Source: Armatimonadota bacterium
Lineage (GTDB): Bacteria > Armatimonadota > Fimbriimonadia > Fimbriimonadales > Fimbriimonadaceae
Direction of reading: 5' to 3'
Length of the DNA stretch: 47,178 nt
Assembly: GCA_029781035.1 (NCBI GenBank)
Contig: JAKOXK010000091.1
Coordinates: forward strand, 1-47,178
Below, piece after piece: positions 10,642-19,003 of the stretch (the first letter of the stretch is position 1; every line of letters begins with the position of its first letter). The translations under genes and the position numbers were made by a program. The notes under the pieces were generated by a model that was not told the DNA's origin, did no database searches, and was given only the letters and a program-made list of their open reading frames with translations.

Positions 10642-12147
10642 ATGAGCAAAGACCTCGGGATCACTCCCAGGGGCGAGAACTACGCCGAGTGGTACAACGA
10701 CCTCGTCAAGCGGGCGGACTTAGCTGAGAACTCCGTCGTCCGCGGGTGCATGGTCATCAAACCGCACGGCTTCGCCCTGTGGGAATTAATGCGGGACGCC
10801 TTGGACGGCATGTTCAAGGCCTCAGGACACGTCAATGCCTGCTTCCCGTTGCTGATCCCAAAAAGCTTCTTCGAAAGGGAAGCCGAGCACGTCGAGGGGT
10901 TTGCCAAAGAGTGCGCCATCGTAACCCACCACCGGCTTACGGCCGACGGGCAAGGCGGGCTGATTCCGGATCCCGAAGCTATGCTGGAAGAACCCTACGT
11001 GATCCGTCCCACGAGCGAGACGATCATCTGGCACTCTTATAAGAACTGGATCCAGTCCTACCGCGACTTACCCATCCTCATCAACCAGTGGGCCAACGTC
11101 ATGCGTTGGGAACTGCGCCCCCGCCTGTTCCTGCGAACGGCCGAGTTTTTCTGGCAGGAAGGGCACACCGCACACGCGACGTACGAGGAGGCCGAGGAAG
11201 AGGCTCTCCTGATCCTGGGGATCTACCGGCGCTTCTGCGAGGAGTGGATGTGTGTCCCCGTCGTTGCCGGGATCAAGAGCGAAGGCGAGAAGTTCGCCGG
11301 TGCCGACCACACGTACACCATCGAGACCATGACTCAGGACCTGCGTGCGATCCAAGCCGGCACGTCGCACCATTTGGGCCAGAACTTCGCCAAGGCGTTC
11401 GATGTGAAGTATCAGAGCGCGGAGGGGAAAGAGGAGTTTGTCTGGGCGACCTCATGGGGCGTTTCGACCCGGCTTATCGGAACCCTTATCATGGCCCACA
11501 GCGACGACAAGGGCCTCGTATGCCCACCCCGCATCGCTCCTGTCCAAGTGGCCATTATCCCGATTGCGCGTGCCGACGATCGAGAGCGGGTCTTCGCCGC
11601 GGCCGATCAACTTGCGGAAGCGCTACGATCATCCTCGTGGTCAGGATTACCCCTCCGCGTCAAGGTCGACAAGTCTGATAAATCGCCTGGGTTCAAGTTC
11701 AACGAGTGGGAGTTGAAGGGGTCGTGCTTGCGTATTGAGCTGGGTCCCCGCGATCTGGACGCAAACCAAGCTGTGATCGCCCGCAGAGACTCGTCTGAGA
11801 AGTCGACCGTCGCTTTGGACCAAGTGGTCGCTCAGGTACTGGCATCTCTTGACTCGCTGCAGAATTCGCTCTTTGACCGGGCCACCGTCCTACTCGAGTC
11901 GAACACGAAGCGGGTGGACAACTGGGAGGACTTCAAGGCAGCCTTTGGAGGCGAGGGAGGTGGAGGCTTTGTCGTGGCCCACTGGGACGGAACGGCCGAG
12001 ACAGAGGCGAGGATCAATGAGGAGACTCGAGCAACCATAAGGTGTATTCCGATCGTTCCGCTCGATCCTGCCGACGCAGAACCCGGGCAGTGTGTCTTGA
12101 CTGGGCGTCCCAGCAAGCAACGCGTGGTCTTTGCCAAGGCCTACTGA
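10642..12147 (+). CDS. proS: Proline-tRNA ligase (archaeal/eukaryal type)
   Basis: Charges tRNA-Pro. The 501-residue protein is the short ProS form without the editing insertion between motifs 2 and 3. Class II motifs are clear: the motif 1 region ([14 protein letters not shown]), RPTSE, motif 2 ([21 protein letters not shown]) and motif 3 ([16 protein letters not shown]). The anticodon-binding domain ([12 protein letters not shown] onward) is followed by a C-terminal extension that ends in Tyr, as in the archaeal/eukaryal class. Many bacteria have a longer, different ProS, so this is probably an old lineage trait or transfer. No strong ribosome binding site precedes the ATG. Convergent with the FG-GAP gene, stops 8 bases apart. 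Confidence 0.95.
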
Positions 12148-12154
12148 GCTAGGT

Positions 12155-13387
12155 TCACTTCCTCAGGAAAACCCAGACGAACCCGTGGTAGTCTACGGGC
12201 GGCAACATCGGCTGGAGAGCCGTGAAGATGTCTCCGAGCCGCTTATCGTTCGCCGACGCTTCATCGTCCGACTGGTACAGCCTGTCGTAAGCCATATCGA
12301 GTTGCGACGTCTGGGAACCGGTGAGCTTGGCGTCAGTGGCATACCCAAGTTCTTTGCAGGCGGCTTTTCTGATGCGGTCGTTGATGGACACCGATTTGAC
12401 TTGAAGTTCGTGTTGTTCCTTCCGAAGCGCCTCGAAGAGCGACTGCTTGTCGGGTGGTAGTTTGAGTGGGCGACCCTCCAAAAGGCGGAAGTCCCCAACC
12501 AAAAGGTCAGGTTTGCCGTCTCCGTTCCAATCGGCCACCGAAGGCTTTGGGCGCATGCCCGGCCTCGGCAGACTCCAATCGAGTTTGTCGCCAGGAACTG
12601 CTGGCACGGGGTTGGAGTCCAGTAGGCTCAGCGGTGGCAGGATCTCGACTGGGTTTTCAAACTCGGGGGCCTCCTTCGCCTTCTTCCCTTTGAAGTAGAG
12701 CAGGCTTCCGGTGTCATTGCCTAGGAACAAGTCCATGATGCCGTCGCCGTCCCAGTCCACGGCGGCAGGACCTCCGTCGGCGGCCTCGAGGCCCTGAATC
12801 TGCACCGGTGGATCGACCCTAAGTCCGCCAGCGTTGTGCACGTACCATACCGGGCCCGAGATAGTTCCGACGATCAGGTCGGGCTTACCATCCTTATCCC
12901 AGTCGTAGGCCGACACGACGGTGGCGTTATCGATGACAAGGTCACTCCCGTTCCGATCCTTGACGTTGACCCCACTCTCATACTGGCCCGTCCCGTCTCC
13001 TTTGAAGAAAACGATCTGGCCGTCGTACGTTCCCGTGATCACGTCCTTGTTGCCGTCGCCGTCAAAGTCCACGAACTGTGGACCAAACCCGACACATCAC
13101 CCATAAGAGACGCGCGCATCGACTCCGCCGGCTTGGAACCATTTGAAGTCTCCGAACTGCGGATCCTGAGCCGTACCTTTGTTCGCATAGACCCTGAGCA
13201 TGCCGTCCTGGAACTGGCCAACCAAGAGATCCGGCTTGCCGTCACCGTCGAAGTCGACGTACAGCGGATGGGCGTGACCGTGCGTGACATCGATCGAGCC
13301 CCCGTCTGCCCCGACACGCACGGGGTCACCTAGCCCGAATCGTGTCCACGGGCTCGCCAAAACGACGGCGGCGATCAACGACAGCAC
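12155..13387 (-). CDS. FG-GAP/VCBS repeat protein with one in-frame UGA (possible selenoprotein or nonsense mutation)
   Basis: Read through a single UGA, this is one 410-residue exported protein. It starts at a GTG (13387; the frame is closed by TAG nine bases upstream) with a signal-like MLSLIAAVVLAS. At least five FG-GAP-type repeats follow, with calcium-type D-x-D-G-D-G loops (VDFDGDGKPDLLVG, VDFDGDGNKDVITG, YDWDKDGKPDLIVG, VDWDGDGIMDLFLG, ADWNGDGKPDLLVG), building a beta-propeller, then a helical C-terminus ending in VFLRK. The UGA (13099-13097) is codon 97, in SYG-UGA-CVGFGPQ. The frame is the same before and after it, and sequence and repeat periodicity continue without a break. The downstream part has only a GTG (13072), no ribosome binding site and no signal peptide, so it is unlikely to be a separate gene. 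Confidence 0.75.
13067..13099 (-). promoter_or_regulatory. SECIS-like hairpin after the in-frame UGA
   Basis: On the minus strand the UGA (13099-13097) is followed after 13 bases by GUCCAC-AGUUC-GUGGAC (13083-13067): a perfect 6-bp stem, extendable by a G-U pair, with a 5-base loop at bases 20-24 after the UGA. An outer GUC/GAC pairing across an internal loop is possible. The loop position is almost that of the E. coli fdhF element (about 19-23), and the loop has G at its second base, as the general bacterial SECIS pattern requires. A chance palindrome in coding DNA is the alternative. Confidence 0.4.
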
Positions 13388-13548
13388 CTTTCCATTCTAC
13401 GCCCTGGGCAATGTTCTCCACCACGGTGTGCAAAGACTGGGTGGAAAACGCGTGGAAACAAACGCAAACTGTGAGTTCTTAGAGGGCCAGATGTCTGATA
13501 AAGTATTTCCATCAGACGGGGACAGCGAAGAGGCCAGATCGAGACCGG

Positions 13549-13609
13549 GAAACCGGCCACGAAGCAACCACTGAGCGACCCAGTCTGTACTGCGGATCGA
13601 AACCGGCCA
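13549..13609 (+). repeat. Direct repeat GAAACCGGCCA, two copies
   Basis: Identical 11-base copies at 13549-13559 and 13599-13609, 50 bases apart. The second copy is at the proposed 5' end of the structured RNA, and its ACCGGC can pair with GCCGGT at 13967-13972 near the 3' end. Confidence 0.6.
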
Positions 13610-13975
13610 GCGTTATGAGAGGCCCTGCGGGGCTTTGAGTCTGGTACGGAGCGAGCCGTGCGCGGAGCGAAGACTCGGTCGGTCGCCACTAAGGCTTGAT
13701 AAGGCTGATCGAGTTAGAGCCCGGGGTGCAAGCCAACCTTGGGTTCGCCACTCCGCATATGGCCTAGAGCCTGTGCGGTGTGTGTCGGTCGAAAGGTCGG
13801 TACAAACCGTTGGCTCAGTTGGCCGTGTGGACTGTAAGTACGGTCAGATCTTTCGAGATTTGGCAAGTAGTCGGAACCACTCGTAGGCATCGGCCAAGTC
13901 TGCCGCAAGGCGGGCGCGGAGTCAGCCTACAAGCTTTGACCGGCGCTGGAAGGTTCGCCTTGCGGTGCCGGTCTT
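13600..13975 (+). ncRNA. Candidate large structured RNA, family not recognised
   Basis: A run of hairpins, nearly all closed by stable tetraloops on the + strand: GAGGCCC[UGCG]GGGCUUU (13619-13636); GAGUCU/AGACUC (13637-13642 with 13671-13676) enclosing ACGG/CCGU; CACUCCGCA with UGCGGUGUG around 13749-13782; CGGUC[GAAA]GGUCG (13786-13799); a 9-bp stem with UUCG loop (13843-13864); CUGCC[GCAA]GGCGG (13900-13913) inside GUAGGC/GCCUAC (13883-13888 with 13925-13930); and a strong final stem with UUCG loop (13938-13973). The 5' ACCGGC and CCAGCG can also pair with the 3' end. The ~375-base length is like RNase P RNA or tmRNA, but I find neither the conserved RNase P core nor a tmRNA tag or CCA end. 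Pairings were found by eye, not by a folding program. Confidence 0.5.
13938..13973 (+). terminator. Strong 3' hairpin with UUCG loop
   Basis: GACCGGC (13938-13944) pairs with GCCGGTC (13967-13973); inside, most of GCTGG pairs with GCGGT (one mismatch, two wobbles) and AAGG[TTCG]CCTT caps the stem (13950-13961). A T-run (13992-13996) comes only 18 bases later, so it may be an RNA 3' domain rather than a standard terminator. Confidence 0.5.
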
Positions 13976-14150
13976 GCCGTTAAGAGTCTTGTTTTTCCGT
14001 GGCGTTCCCAGATGCCCCGCCACAGCCGAGGAGTTCGGTTCTGGCAGTTCCCGGGCAAGGATGCTCCGAGCCCGCGGTCAAGGCAAAAAAACTCAACGTT
14101 TTTCAGCGAATCGACAGCTAAAAGTACTAGGTTGGCGTACAAAGAGGGGA

Positions 14151-14828
14151 ATGGTTCGTCGGTTTGCAGACCGGCATGACGCTGGGAGGTCGCTCGCGGC
14201 GTGTCTCGTGCGCCTAGAGATTGACCCGGATGTCGTGATAGCTTTGCCTCGGGGAGGGGTGGCGGTGGCTACTATGGTGGCTGAAGCCCTTGGATGCCCC
14301 TTGGACGTCTTGCCCGTCCGCAAGATCGGAGCGCCGGGCCATTCGGAATATGCGATGGGAGCCCTGGCTTCGGGAGGAACGATCGTCTTGAACGAATCGG
14401 CGATTCAGAGCCTTTCGGTGCCTGCCGACCAACTGGCCGACATTGTTGAGCGCGAGCAGGCCGAGTTGTTGCGGCAAGAGGCCGTGTACCACGACAAGGT
14501 CTCGGCTATTTCCGTTCGGGGCAAGCGATTGGTCGTCGTCGACGATGGAATTGCGACGGGCGAAACCGTTCGCGCAGCCGCCAAGGAACTGCTCCGCAGA
14601 GGTGCGACTCAAATTGTCGTTGCGGCACCGGTCGGCGCGCCCGAGAGCATCGCTAGCTTGGCGCAGATTCCGGGAGTCGATGTTGTGTGCGTGCAAACGC
14701 CGTCGGACCTCCACGCAGTAGGACAGTTCTATGACGAGTTCGAGGCAGCTACGGACGATGATGTGAACCGGCTGTTGGCTGAATCACGAGCGGATGGTGG
14801 GGCAAATGGAGATGACGGAGACGACTAG
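14151..14828 (+). CDS. Phosphoribosyltransferase family protein
   Basis: A 225-residue type I PRTase fold protein. The PRPP-binding motif is VVVDDGIATGET (residues about 129-140), with the conserved acidic pair and Thr-Gly-Glu-Thr. N-terminal LPRGGVAVATMVAEAL and VRKIGAPGHSEYAMGALA are typical of the uncharacterised PRTases found next to, or fused with, dienelactone hydrolase-like proteins in actinobacteria and others. The substrate base is unknown. The start at 14151 has AGAGGGGA directly upstream; the frame is open further but enters the structured-RNA region. It overlaps the next gene by 17 bases, so the two are probably translated together. Confidence 0.85.
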   Translation: MVRRFADRHDAGRSLAACLVRLEIDPDVVIALPRGGVAVATMVAEALGCPLDVLPVRKIGAPGHSEYAMGALASGGTIVLNESAIQSLSVPADQLADIVEREQAELLRQEAVYHDKVSAISVRGKRLVVVDDGIATGETVRAAAKELLRRGATQIVVAAPVGAPESIASLAQIPGVDVVCVQTPSDLHAVGQFYDEFEAATDDDVNRLLAESRADGGANGDDGDD

Positions 14829-15540
14829 CACGATCGGAATCCAGGCAGACAGGGGCGAAATAGTTGGCGATTTGACACTGCCGGCAAAAGCCAAGGCGCT
14901 CATCGTATTCGCCCACGGCTCAGGGAGCAGTCGGTTCAGTCCTCGTAACCGCTTTGTCGCAAGAGCCCTGAATGAACGCGGATTCGGATCGCTCCTCGGA
15001 GACCTTCTTACGGCCGAAGAGGGCATTGCCGACGACCGGACACTCCACTACCGGTTCAACATCAGGTTTTTGACTGAGCGCCTCGTGAAGTTCCTGGACT
15101 GGGCTCGGCAAGACCAAACGTGCCGTGGCCTTCCGATCGGGCTCTTTGGCGCCAGCACGGGTGCCGCGGCAGCCCTCATGGCCGCAACGGTTCGGCGTGA
15201 CTCGGTTGGCGCGATCGTCAGCCGAGGTGGGCGTCCCGACTTGACGGGCACGCTGCTTTTTCAGGTCGAGGCGCCGACTCTCTTTTTGGTCGGTACTCAC
15301 GACCATGAAGTTCAGAAACTCAATCAAGAGGCGATGGCCGCCATGCCGCTTGCAGTCAAGGAACTGCAACTCGTAGAAGGTGCCTCACACCTGTTCGAGG
15401 AACCAGGTGCTTTGGAGCGGGTCGCCGAAAGTGCATGTGACTGGTTCGACCGTCACCTATTGTCCGGTCACGAACGCGGTCAGCTGGGCAAAAGAGAAGC
15501 CCCTCCGACCCAGGGTCGGAGGGGCGCCGACCAGGCTTAG
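14812..15540 (+). CDS. Alpha/beta hydrolase, dienelactone hydrolase-like
   Basis: A 242-residue protein. The oxyanion region is FAHGSGSSRFSPRN, the nucleophile elbow GASTG (GxSxG), the acid GTHDHEV and the base His in EGASHLFEEPGA. This matches the small hydrolases that accompany PRTases; substrate unknown. ATGs at 14794, 14806 and 14812 are in frame; 14812 has GGTGGGG nine bases upstream and is preferred. The last ~25 residues lie past the usual end of the fold, and part of them is encoded by the terminator hairpin of the opposite-strand citrate synthase gene (15500-15524). Its TAG overlaps the TAA of that gene in TTAG (15537-15540). Confidence 0.85.
   Translation: MTETTSTIGIQADRGEIVGDLTLPAKAKALIVFAHGSGSSRFSPRNRFVARALNERGFGSLLGDLLTAEEGIADDRTLHYRFNIRFLTERLVKFLDWARQDQTCRGLPIGLFGASTGAAAALMAATVRRDSVGAIVSRGGRPDLTGTLLFQVEAPTLFLVGTHDHEVQKLNQEAMAAMPLAVKELQLVEGASHLFEEPGALERVAESACDWFDRHLLSGHERGQLGKREAPPTQGRRGADQA
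15500..15524 (-). terminator. Terminator of the citrate synthase gene, inside the hydrolase frame
   Basis: CCCCTCCGACCC (15500-15511) and GGGTCGGAGGGG (15513-15524) form a perfect stem of at least 11 bp. On the minus strand it is followed by CTTCTCTTTT, so it belongs to the citrate synthase gene, which ends 12 bases before it. On the + strand no T-run follows. Confidence 0.85.
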
Positions 15541-16679
15541 CGCTGGTCGATCGGGACGAACTCGGTCACCTTAGGCCCTTCGTAGATGCAGGTGGGACGA
15601 ATCAATCGGTTGTTGTCCAACTGCTCGATCATATGGGCGCACCACCCTGTAGTCCGCGCCACCACGAAGATGGGCGTGTAGAGAGGGATGGGGATACCCA
15701 GCAGATAGTACGCATAAGCGCTGGGGAAGTCGATGTTCGGGAAGAGCTTCTTCTCGTCCCACATGATCTTCTCCATGACTTCGGCGATGTCGCCCCAGTG
15801 CGTGTCGCCGACACGCTTTCCGATCTCCTTGCCCAATTTGCTCATGTAGGCGGCGCGACTGTCACCGATGCGGTATTCACGGTGGCCAAAGCCCATGATC
15901 TTCTTCTTCTGGGCCAAGGCGTCGTGCGTCCACTTGGCGACGTCGCCCATTTTGTCGATCTCCATCAGCATGTACATCGCCTCTTCGTTCGCTCCACCGT
16001 GAAGCGGGCCTTTGAGCGTGCCGATGCCGCTGACGATGCCTGAATAGAGGTCGCTCAGGGTGGCTACCGTCACACGACTCGCAAAGGTGGACGCGTTGTA
16101 ACCATGCTCAGCGTACAGAGTCAGGCTCGCGTCCATAACCTTGATCACGAATTCGTCCGGCTTTTCACCCTTCAGCATGTACATGAAATTGCCGGCGATA
16201 CCCAATTCAGGGCTAGGTTGGATCGGTTCGAGCCCCTCGCTGATGCGGTGGGCAGCCGCCACGGCGTTCGCAGCCTTGGCGACTATCCTCACGGCCTTCC
16301 TGACATTGGCCTCGTGGTCGGTCGGCTCGGCACGATAGTCAGCGTCGAAGGCGCCCAGCATCGAGTACGCCACCTTCAGCCGATCCATCGGGTGCATGTT
16401 CTTCGGACACTGCTTAAGGGCTGCGATGACCTCATTGGGCAAAACAGATTCGTTGGAGATGCGGGCCTTGAACTCGGCAAGTTCGGACTTGTTGGGAAGC
16501 TTGCCCATCAGCAGGAGGTAGGCAGTCTCTTCGAAAACGGCGTGCTCCGCCAGCTCATGGACGTTGATGCCCCGATAAGTGAGACTGGAGGTTTCGACGT
16601 CGATCTCGCTGATCGTCGTGATGCCGGCGATGACGCCTTGGAGGCCAGGGCTGTAATTGGGATAGGTGGTTGCGCTCAT
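15537..16679 (-). CDS. Citrate synthase or 2-methylcitrate synthase
   Basis: Condenses oxaloacetate with acetyl-CoA (or propionyl-CoA). 380 residues, the usual size of the type II dimeric enzyme of thermophiles and Gram-positives. Catalytic residues are present: His227 in GPLHGGANE, His266 in GFGHREYR and Asp317 in NIDFPSAYAYYLLGIP; the C-terminal TPIFVVARTTGWCAHMIEQLDNNRLIRP is also standard. Sequence alone does not separate citrate from methylcitrate synthase: methylisocitrate lyase 1.4 kb away suggests the methylcitrate cycle, and isocitrate dehydrogenase in the window fits the TCA cycle. No clear ribosome binding site. Its terminator lies inside the convergent hydrolase gene. Confidence 0.9.
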   Translation of the reverse strand: MSATTYPNYSPGLQGVIAGITTISEIDVETSSLTYRGINVHELAEHAVFEETAYLLLMGKLPNKSELAEFKARISNESVLPNEVIAALKQCPKNMHPMDRLKVAYSMLGAFDADYRAEPTDHEANVRKAVRIVAKAANAVAAAHRISEGLEPIQPSPELGIAGNFMYMLKGEKPDEFVIKVMDASLTLYAEHGYNASTFASRVTVATLSDLYSGIVSGIGTLKGPLHGGANEEAMYMLMEIDKMGDVAKWTHDALAQKKKIMGFGHREYRIGDSRAAYMSKLGKEIGKRVGDTHWGDIAEVMEKIMWDEKKLFPNIDFPSAYAYYLLGIPIPLYTPIFVVARTTGWCAHMIEQLDNNRLIRPTCIYEGPKVTEFVPIDQR

Positions 16680-16876
16680 TTTGGTGTCTCTGGACGTACG
16701 AAATACGCGGGTCGCGGGGCAAGTGGCACGACACGCCGTAGTATCCTGACACCTGCGTCAGCCCGGCTAATCGGAGGGAGTGTACCTGGAGCGTCCCGAG
16801 GTTCTTGGCAGGTGACCGAACGTCCTAGCTACAGGTTGCCAGCGGGCCAATGTACGCGAAAGACCGTGTAAACAAC

Positions 16877-17275
16877 ATGAAAAACACCAAGTCAATTGTC
16901 GCCTTGTTCTTCTGTGCGGCCGTCATCGCGACCACGGTTTCTGGTTGTGGAGGGGTCACCGGCTTGCTCGGACATCTCGTGAGCATGGATTCCGGATCGG
17001 TCTTCAACCCGAAAACCGTGACGGTCGGACCCGGAGACACGGTCACTTGGACGAATGCCGACGCCATCGTGCACTCTGTCGTGGCGGACGTCTCTGGCGG
17101 CCCAGACTCCACCACGGACTTTCCCAACGGTCTGGCGACAGGGGATATCTACGAATGGACTGTTCCCAATGCCCCTTCCGGCACCAAGTACTACTACCAC
17201 TGCGGCTACCAAGGAACGGCAGGCAACGGCACTACGTTTGGTACGGGAATGGTCGGCGTCATCGTCGTCCAGTAA
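16877..17275 (+). CDS. Cupredoxin-domain lipoprotein with altered copper site
   Basis: A 132-residue protein with a lipoprotein signal (MKNTKSIVALFF to VSGC), so probably anchored in the membrane facing the periplasm. The plastocyanin-like domain has SGSVFNPKTVTVGPGDTVTWTNAD, the first ligand His in AIVHSV, the Cys in YYYHCGYQ and Met in GTGMVG at the end. The usual C-x-x-H reads C-G-Y-Q here: the second ligand His is Gln (codon CAA), and Cys to Met is longer than in plastocyanin. Either copper binding is changed or the neighbouring His is used. The start at 16877 fits the signal peptide; an ATG at 16850 is in frame. Divergent from citrate synthase; a shared terminator follows. Confidence 0.85.
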   Translation: MKNTKSIVALFFCAAVIATTVSGCGGVTGLLGHLVSMDSGSVFNPKTVTVGPGDTVTWTNADAIVHSVVADVSGGPDSTTDFPNGLATGDIYEWTVPNAPSGTKYYYHCGYQGTAGNGTTFGTGMVGVIVVQ

Positions 17276-17282
17276 CTGAAAA

Positions 17283-17309
17283 CCCCTCTGTCGCCAAGCG
17301 ACAGAGGGG
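17283..17309. terminator. Bidirectional terminator
   Basis: CCCCTCTGTCGC (17283-17294) and GCGACAGAGGGG (17298-17309): a perfect 12-bp stem with CAA loop, between the convergent cupredoxin and PEP-CTERM genes. The minus strand continues GGTTTTCAG; the + strand continues ACTTCTC. Confidence 0.85.
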
Positions 17310-17334
17310 ACTTCTCGTCGAAACCTTACTATCG

Positions 17335-17937
17335 TCAGGCTTTCCGGCGTCGAGCCATGAATGCCGCAAGTCCCGTGCCCAGCGCGATCAGGCTGGCCGG
17401 TTCCGGCACAACGTCGGCAGACGACGTGAAGGACGCGGTGTAGGTCATGTGATCACCGACCTGAGTCGCGTTGGCAAAGCTGAACGAAAAGGCCTGGTTA
17501 GTCAGGTTCCCGGGAACGTTCGGTCCGTTGAACGTGACCGCATCACCGTTGGCCGAGGCGGCAGCTGCGTTCAGCGGGTTGAGGAACGTTCCTCCACCAA
17601 AGCCGACCGTGAAGAACGGATTGTTCACGTCGTTCGTGTAGAACTTGATCGTGCCTGAACCCATCGTATAGAGCACGTTCGGAATGATCACTGTCAGAGC
17701 GACGGGATCCATGACGAAGTGCGTGTTGGCGACAGATCCTCCGCCATTGAACCCTGGCGTTTGAAGCGTCATGTTGGCCAACGTCCAAGACCCGGACAGG
17801 GTGTTGTTGGCCATGTCCCAGTCGAACAACGGGGTGGAACCATTGGGAGCGGGATCCGAGAAAGAGGCGAGCGTAAAGCTGGCCTGGCTGGCCACTCCGA
17901 GGGCCAGAAGTGCGGTCACAAATAACGTCCTTCGCAT
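17335..17937 (-). CDS. PEP-CTERM sorting-domain protein
   Basis: A 200-residue exported protein with a signal peptide (MRRTLFVTALLALGVASQAS), a body rich in Asn, Gly, Ser, Thr and Phe without catalytic motif, and a sorting tail VVPEPAS followed by a hydrophobic stretch and ARRRKA. Not closely similar to the PEP-CTERM protein at 9721 outside the tail. The start at 17937 has GGAAAGG about 11 bases upstream and fits the signal peptide; the frame is open to 18048. Likely a surface or matrix protein. Confidence 0.85.
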   Translation of the reverse strand: MRRTLFVTALLALGVASQASFTLASFSDPAPNGSTPLFDWDMANNTLSGSWTLANMTLQTPGFNGGGSVANTHFVMDPVALTVIIPNVLYTMGSGTIKFYTNDVNNPFFTVGFGGGTFLNPLNAAAASANGDAVTFNGPNVPGNLTNQAFSFSFANATQVGDHMTYTASFTSSADVVPEPASLIALGTGLAAFMARRRKA

Positions 17938-18106
17938 GCTCTTATGTACCTTTCCGAGAAGTAACGACCAAGGTGGAATCAGCGCTTGTCGGTCGCAGAC
18001 CCACGAATGCTCATCCATTTTGACGCAGATTTCTGGCCGAACGACCAAAGCTTAGGCCGATATAGCAAAATCACCAGGCCAAATCGGGTAAAGGGGGACT
18101 TGATCC

Positions 18107-19003
18107 CTACTTTCTTTGGGCCGTCCTCTCGCTCCACTCCTCATCGAGGGCCTCATACTTCTCGTACTCGATGAGTCGGTAAAGCTCTTGTCGTGTCGTC
18201 ATCTGAGGAATGAGGTGTTCCTGCGTGCCCTCTTGAATCAGGGTCGCATAGAAAGAGGTCACGGCCTTGAGCGCGATCCGCATCGCGCTCACTGGATAGA
18301 TGACCATCTCGTATCCGATGGAACTGAACGTTGAGACCGGAATGATCGGTGTTTTGCCAAACTCCGTCATGTTCGCCAGCAACGGTACCGACACTTCTTC
18401 GCGGAACCGCGCGAACTCCTCGACGCTGGACAGGCCCTCAGGAAAGACGGCGTCGGCTCCCGCGTCGACATACGTTTGGGCCCGACTGATCGCAAGCTCC
18501 AGTCCCTCGACCCCGCGAGCGTCTGTGCGTGCCACGATCAAGAAGTCGGGACTGCGTTTAGAGTCCGCTGCGGCACGGATCTTCTGAGCCATTTCATCGA
18601 CGGTAATCAGAGCCTTACCGTCCAAGTGCCCACACTTTTTCGGCATCACCTGGTCCTCCAGATGGATACCGGCCAAACCTGCCCGCTCCATCTCGATCAC
18701 ACAACGGGCGACGTTCCAGGTCTCACCGAAGCCTGTGTCGGCGTCAGAGACGACAGGAATCGGGGCCACCTGGCAGATTCGGGCTGCCTGCGCCGCCATC
18801 TCGCTGAGAGTGACCAGTCCGATGTCAGGGACCCCGAGTTGGCTGTTCGTGACAGCAGCGCCGCTGATATAGGCTGCCTGAAACCCCGCTCTATGGGCCG
18901 CGACGGCGGTCAAGGCATCGTACACGCCTGGCAAGACGACCGTGCCGTCCCGCATGAGCTCTCGGAGCACCTTCCCAGGGTTCACGATCGGTGGGCGCAA
19001 CAT
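18107..19003 (-). CDS. prpB: Methylisocitrate lyase
   Basis: Cleaves 2-methylisocitrate to pyruvate and succinate in the methylcitrate cycle of propionate breakdown. 298 residues, the normal PrpB size. The (methyl)isocitrate lyase fold shows VLPGVYDALTA, the metal/substrate aspartates in VVSDADTGFGE (Asp87, Asp89), GIHLEDQ and the catalytic loop PKKCGH with Cys124. The short length and KKCGH favour methylisocitrate over isocitrate lyase, which is usually over 420 residues. Divergent from enolase (122 bases between starts). The nearby citrate synthase-family gene could supply methylcitrate; no prpD-like dehydratase is in the window. Confidence 0.9.
   Translation of the reverse strand: MLRPPIVNPGKVLRELMRDGTVVLPGVYDALTAVAAHRAGFQAAYISGAAVTNSQLGVPDIGLVTLSEMAAQAARICQVAPIPVVSDADTGFGETWNVARCVIEMERAGLAGIHLEDQVMPKKCGHLDGKALITVDEMAQKIRAAADSKRSPDFLIVARTDARGVEGLELAISRAQTYVDAGADAVFPEGLSSVEEFARFREEVSVPLLANMTEFGKTPIIPVSTFSSIGYEMVIYPVSAMRIALKAVTSFYATLIQEGTQEHLIPQMTTRQELYRLIEYEKYEALDEEWSERTAQRK

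Follow-up and report, generated by a model that had tools for sequence, protein, structure and literature searches.

The in-frame UGA of an FG-GAP repeat gene

The question raised by this locus is whether a lone UGA inside an otherwise continuous FG-GAP repeat gene of an Armatimonadota bacterium is damage, an ordinary sense codon or the signal for selenocysteine (Sec). The window, that is, the whole 47,178-nucleotide stretch of contig JAKOXK010000091.1 that was analyzed, carries the gene on its minus strand (12155..13387), where the frame runs from a GTG at 13387 to a single UGA at 13099-13097 and is then open until a TGA at 12157-12155. The codon immediately after the internal UGA is UGU (13094..13096, minus strand), which encodes Cys. 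Numbered from GTG 13387, taken here as the start, the UGA (13097..13099, minus strand) is codon 97; translation might instead begin at a TTG at 13378, which has a GGAAAGG 8 nt before it, and the choice between the two starts is uncertain. Read through the UGA, the gene would encode 410 residues with Sec at position 97, and it is supported at this length by full-length homologues and a match to the Pfam FG-GAP_3 model (1.9e-24); the list of open reading frames has it split in two at the UGA. The original prediction, made from the letters alone, had recognized that the frame continues across a lone UGA at codon 97 with a Cys next to it, as the sequence confirms, and had supposed that Sec stands in for a Cys of a CC pair, which the homologue alignment bears out for the first Cys of the pair.

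A widespread family with UGA or Cys at one codon

Scanning one genome per species, and aligning the products with TGA read as U, we recovered homologues, mostly 27-47% identical, with a UGA at exactly the same codon in relatives from the Armatimonadota, Planctomycetota, Verrucomicrobiota, Sumerlaeota, Fermentibacterota and Bacteroidota, and with a Cys at the aligned codon in Chitinophaga, Odoribacter and ACE_ARM1. Such an alignment had been proposed at the outset as a check, and its outcome, UGA or Cys at codon 97 in relatives of several phyla, is the one that favors Sec. Cys98, the partner in the vicinal Sec97-Cys98 pair, is a Cys in 98% of 70 aligned members. Within its own phylum the UGA form occurs in 16 of 291 genomes, and in about one-fifth of the sampled Planctomycetota (83/392); members of any form were found in 90 of these 392 planctomycetal genomes, amounting to 108 matches. 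Bacteroidota (1/395) and Verrucomicrobiota (4/388) contain few members. The sequence comparisons thus place the gene in a widespread family; it is not an oddity.

A lone in-frame stop in a draft assembly, here of 98 contigs, is often a nonsense mutation, the mark of a decayed pseudogene or a sequencing mistake, any of which would leave the gene broken; the first and the last had been kept as real alternatives in the original prediction. All are contradicted by dozens of genomes, assembled independently of one another, in which the UGA recurs at this codon. Indeed, 101 of the 108 Planctomycetota matches have exactly one TGA, seven have no stop and none has a TAA or TAG, with the caveat that the position of the TGA in this phylum was checked at the aligned codon for the fetched loci only, the others being known by their stop count. 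Moreover, dN/dS among close pairs is ~0.2-0.3 downstream of the UGA, pointing to purifying selection that persists beyond it. Given this recurrence at a single position, and a frame that stays intact beyond it, we regard damage as refuted, with hardly a trace of doubt left.

Some members depart from the common arrangement. Three from the Nitrospirota (L045:5304, L057:5328 and L063:4609) have a GUxG motif that is one residue shorter and lacks the second Cys, with the UGA one residue off and the hairpin described below still present in a slightly shifted place. In another (L037:5226) the order is reversed to Cys-Sec (GCUG) and the hairpin lies a few bases further downstream. The genome under study has a second UGA-bearing paralogue (L127, G000:C12:2698-3873) with the same stem downstream.

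The hairpin downstream of the UGA

Thirteen bases after the UGA lies a putative apical hairpin of a bacterial SECIS element (bSECIS), G-GUCCAC-AGUUC-GUGGAC-U (13066..13084, minus strand), with a perfect 6-bp stem (13083-13078 with 13072-13067) plus one G-U pair and a loop (13077-13073) at bases 20-24. In the published bacterial SECIS model the loop has 3-9 nt and the stem 4-16 bp, a G is among the first two loop bases, the spacing is 16-37 nt and the minimum free energy (MFE) is at most -7.5. All of these constraints are met: the loop has 5 nt and occupies bases 20-24, the stem has 6-7 bp, G is at loop position 2, and the 48-nt stretch folds at -18.2 kcal/mol. The stem, loop, spacing and G originally described for this site are confirmed in full. 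Taken by itself, the hairpin of this gene is only modestly better than chance, by about two standard deviations, whether against dinucleotide shuffles (z -1.98) or synonymous recoding (z -2.4), and for this reason the single sequence is insufficient to make the case. The same codon followed by the same stem in dozens of relatives is, as a matter of sequence comparison, what lifts it far beyond chance.

We compared the stem across 58 aligned UGA forms with identical spacing and seven Cys forms. In the UGA forms, pairs 19-31 and 20-30 are invariant; pair 21-29 is A-U in 31, G-C in 20 and C-G in one; and pair 22-28 is C-G in 57, with a single U-A. The exception is a planctomycetal locus (L145:1780-1827) that has an odd peptide after the Sec (PSVMD), and in which columns 22-28 and 23-27 each carry substitutions in both partners, giving U-A and C-G, respectively. 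Such double-sided change in two pairs is strong evidence that the RNA is under selection. Over the whole set, both-sided changes number 35 cells versus 14.4 in shuffles, none of 500 of which reached as high, and the signal is destroyed when the partner column is slid; smaller sets were also examined. As relatedness among the sequences inflates the shuffle control, we rank the evidence from column 30, which is the stronger, above this count. In codon terms this column is the third position of Val or Ala (Gly in one form and Met in another), and is hence free of protein constraint except in the Met case. It is nevertheless G in 58 of 58 UGA forms versus one of seven Cys forms (p 8e-8, to be used only as a guide, given that the sequences are related), compared with less than one-third (470/1496) at the other Val/Ala wobble bases of these genes. 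Pair 20-30 is broken in six of the seven Cys forms. In a similar vein, the mean z under synonymous recoding is -1.7 in 26 UGA forms versus -0.2 in six Cys-coded relatives. A conserved stem in relatives had been put forward as a test of the prediction, and the stem is indeed retained, with covariation, where the codon is UGA and disrupted where it is Cys; the assignment of the hairpin as a bSECIS rests on this pattern together with its fold.

Sec machinery and the co-occurrence with selB

The assembly holding the window (3.42 Mb, 96% complete) contains all four genes of the Sec machinery that the original prediction had named for a genome search: selA (448 bits), selB (311 bits), selD (336 bits) and selC, a tRNA called as tRNA-Sec with the anticodon UCA. 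The tRNA-Trp detected has the anticodon CCA, and the gene under study is itself terminated by UGA, whereas TAA or TAG closes the frame in many relatives.

These observations bear on the possibility that the UGA is read by a near-cognate tRNA, such as that for Trp, or has been reassigned to an ordinary amino acid, with no Sec involved. Stop readthrough does occur in bacteria, and a frame open on both sides of the UGA is what it would leave. However, the anticodon of the tRNA-Trp and the continued use of UGA as the gene's terminator make a global reassignment unlikely. Further, the UGA tracks selB, Cys is the residue that takes its place in other members, and the stem, which covaries, is lost from the Cys forms. 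Readthrough or reassignment is thus an explanation to which we can attach only very slight weight.

The association with selB is pronounced. In the Armatimonadota it is present in 16 of 16 genomes with a UGA form versus 124 of the 275 others (p 5e-6), and in the sampled Planctomycetota in 48 of 51 UGA genomes, one of seven Cys genomes and 11 of 20 genomes without the gene. Three of the seven planctomycetal Cys genomes were read directly or grouped with those read, and the rest are defined by having no internal stop. In the first homologue set, 20 of 24 UGA genomes have selB. The genomes with a UGA form in which it was not found (G011, G013, G019 and G036 in the first set, and G460, G475 and G478 among the Planctomycetota) are probably incomplete draft assemblies. 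Conversely, two Cys forms (ACE_ARM1 and G517) coexist with selB. On a tree of 70 sequences, built by a quick method and with some long branches, six Sec/Cys changes are needed, at least five of which are forced by well-supported branches. The family offers a ready test set, comprising natural Sec forms, several independently arisen Cys forms and genomes with two paralogues.

A predicted five-bladed propeller with conserved entry loops

The protein scores above the Pfam cut-off for FG-GAP repeats (PF13517, 86.5 bits; PF01839, 55.9 bits) and has five DxDxDG motifs. Its AlphaFold model (pLDDT 92.9, pTM 0.87) is a beta-propeller, which VIA-align overlays on five-bladed propellers, the best being GH43 (Z ~18 over 240-250 residues, at 9-16% identity); the proteins indicated by Foldseek and by sequence profiles are CRTAC1, integrin alpha and lectins. 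We accordingly describe it as a predicted five-bladed FG-GAP beta-propeller. In the model, a helical insert (residues 312-394; 12206..12454, minus strand) separates the last blade from the closing strand; this insert is absent from short members. The C-terminal strand GFVWVFLRK (12158..12187, minus strand; G402 100%, V404 89% and W405 84% conserved) is inferred to close the propeller.

Outside the repeat core, the conserved residues are His38, Sec97-Cys98, Gly100, Pro103, Arg279 and Lys281, each of which is in a blade-entry loop. His38, in the GHA.P loop (13274..13276, minus strand), is 87% conserved and a candidate active-site residue whose role is inferred; the same holds for Arg279 and Lys281 in the RxK loop before blade 5 (12545..12553, minus strand; R279 91%, K281 as K or R 91%). 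The Sec97-Cys98 pair sits in the loop entering blade 2. In integrin propellers the blade-entry loops share one face, and by analogy we infer that those of this protein do likewise and would meet at the mouth of the channel, a geometry derived from strand order, without coordinates. Many members have hydrophobic N-termini resembling signal peptides, and the protein is probably secreted or extracytoplasmic, although no dedicated predictor stands behind this assignment.

Proposed mechanism and function

We consider it close to certain that the product is a true selenoprotein and belongs to a widespread family, one not described in the sources consulted, in which Sec is inserted through SECIS and SelB into a propeller with a likely redox or soft-metal center. 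At codon 97 the ribosome would meet the UGA, the hairpin lying 13 nt beyond it would act as a bacterial SECIS and recruit SelB carrying Sec-tRNA(UCA), and Sec would be inserted, with translation continuing to the normal stop. The comparative evidence for insertion at this codon through SelB and the hairpin is very strong, in the absence of peptide or 75Se data. The product would be a probably secreted five-bladed FG-GAP beta-propeller with Sec97-Cys98 at the entry of blade 2, where the pair, along with His38 and Arg279/Lys281, may form an extracytoplasmic redox (selenol/thiol) or soft-metal center at the propeller mouth. One or the other of these is the most likely nature of the Sec-Cys center, a catalytic role being inferred and not demonstrated.

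In bacterial selenoproteins termination competes with Sec insertion. One might hence envisage a regulated switch, with selenium yielding the full protein and its absence a 96-residue, one-blade fragment with a role of its own, and this is compatible with all the data of our analysis. Yet nothing indicates that the short product has a function, and the Cys forms yield the long protein only; such a switch remains conceivable but improbable. Returning to the full-length selenoprotein as the functional product, its Sec-Cys pair could alternatively be structural or bind soft metals (Cu, Hg) with no part in redox catalysis. Sec is seldom retained for purely structural roles, and metal-resistance neighbors are absent from the 5 kb around 30 members. 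On the other hand, a conserved His is nearby in another entry loop, and selenoproteins with adjacent Cys and Sec include the metal or organometal proteins MerB-like SaoL, HgcA and MbdU (PMC13188914, Table 1). We thus view this as a serious possibility, albeit one falling somewhat short of an even chance, and an extracytoplasmic redox center, preferred over soft-metal binding, remains our first choice, with the function of the Sec still an inference.

An operon or partner gene was also considered and rejected: a conserved neighbor was sought in the 5 kb around 30 members, and none was found, local synteny with L016, the nearest relative, being the one exception. The neighborhood common to the L016 contig (window positions 10642-19003) includes genes for a prolyl-tRNA synthetase, a citrate synthase and a PEP-mutase/isocitrate-lyase family protein, and no link between these neighbors and the selenoprotein was seen.

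Relationship to known selenoproteins and propellers

The fullest inventory of bacterial selenoproteins located, dated May 2026, lists 119 families (PMC13188914, Table 1), among which the Haft selenoprotein families are included. Like the present family, those listed have an in-frame UGA with a bSECIS directly downstream, Cys homologues and Sec machinery; unlike it, none is an FG-GAP protein or a beta-propeller, and most characterized selenoproteins combine a redox motif with a thioredoxin-like fold (PMC13188914). No selenoprotein model of NCBIfam 20.0 (June 2026) matches this protein (P0001) at E up to 1, or any of ten family members at E up to 0.01; for those listed families that NCBIfam does not model, the comparison was limited to names and domains. 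Nor did any known selenoprotein model match the family or the Nitrospirota GUxG variants (the 'hypothetical protein DG' motif). The literature yielded no FG-GAP, VCBS or propeller selenoprotein, with coverage incomplete and an earlier mention possible. The original remark, that no described selenoprotein of this kind was known to its author, thus holds for both the inventory and NCBIfam. As far as could be seen, the family and the Sec-carrying fold are new, and the insertion mechanism is ordinary.

With FG-GAP/VCBS proteins (PF13517, PF01839), such as integrin alpha and CRTAC1, the family shares the repeats and the DxDxDG calcium-type loops (sequence match to CRTAC1, 6e-11), and is set apart by the helical insert, by a Sec-Cys pair in the loop that leads into blade 2 and by having, in the model, five blades. 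To our knowledge, no Sec occurs in these relatives. GH43 and other five-bladed propeller enzymes provide the best structural overlay, but only the fold is alike, with no shared catalytic residues shown; a glycosidase reading was rejected on this ground. The GH43 Pfam model does not match the protein.

A probably secreted Sec-Cys propeller whose Sec is kept across many phyla suggests that selenium takes part, outside the cytoplasm, in a chemistry as yet unknown. In its fullest form, the proposal would be of secreted selenoenzymes forming a widespread, uncatalogued class, with a calcium-loop propeller as scaffold and a catalytic Sec-Cys at the channel mouth, carrying out new selenium chemistry and possibly among the commonest selenoproteins of Planctomycetota; this we would put at even odds. 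Standard gene calling would cut every member of the family in two at the UGA.

The selD of the genome (L104, G000:C64:3179-4108) is itself a selenoprotein gene, with an in-frame TGA at the enzyme's catalytic site, HCAG-U-ASK, the known Sec position of SelD in its UxxK motif (PMC13188914). This form of SelD, likewise decoded through UGA in the same genome, is an unrelated and long-known selenoprotein.
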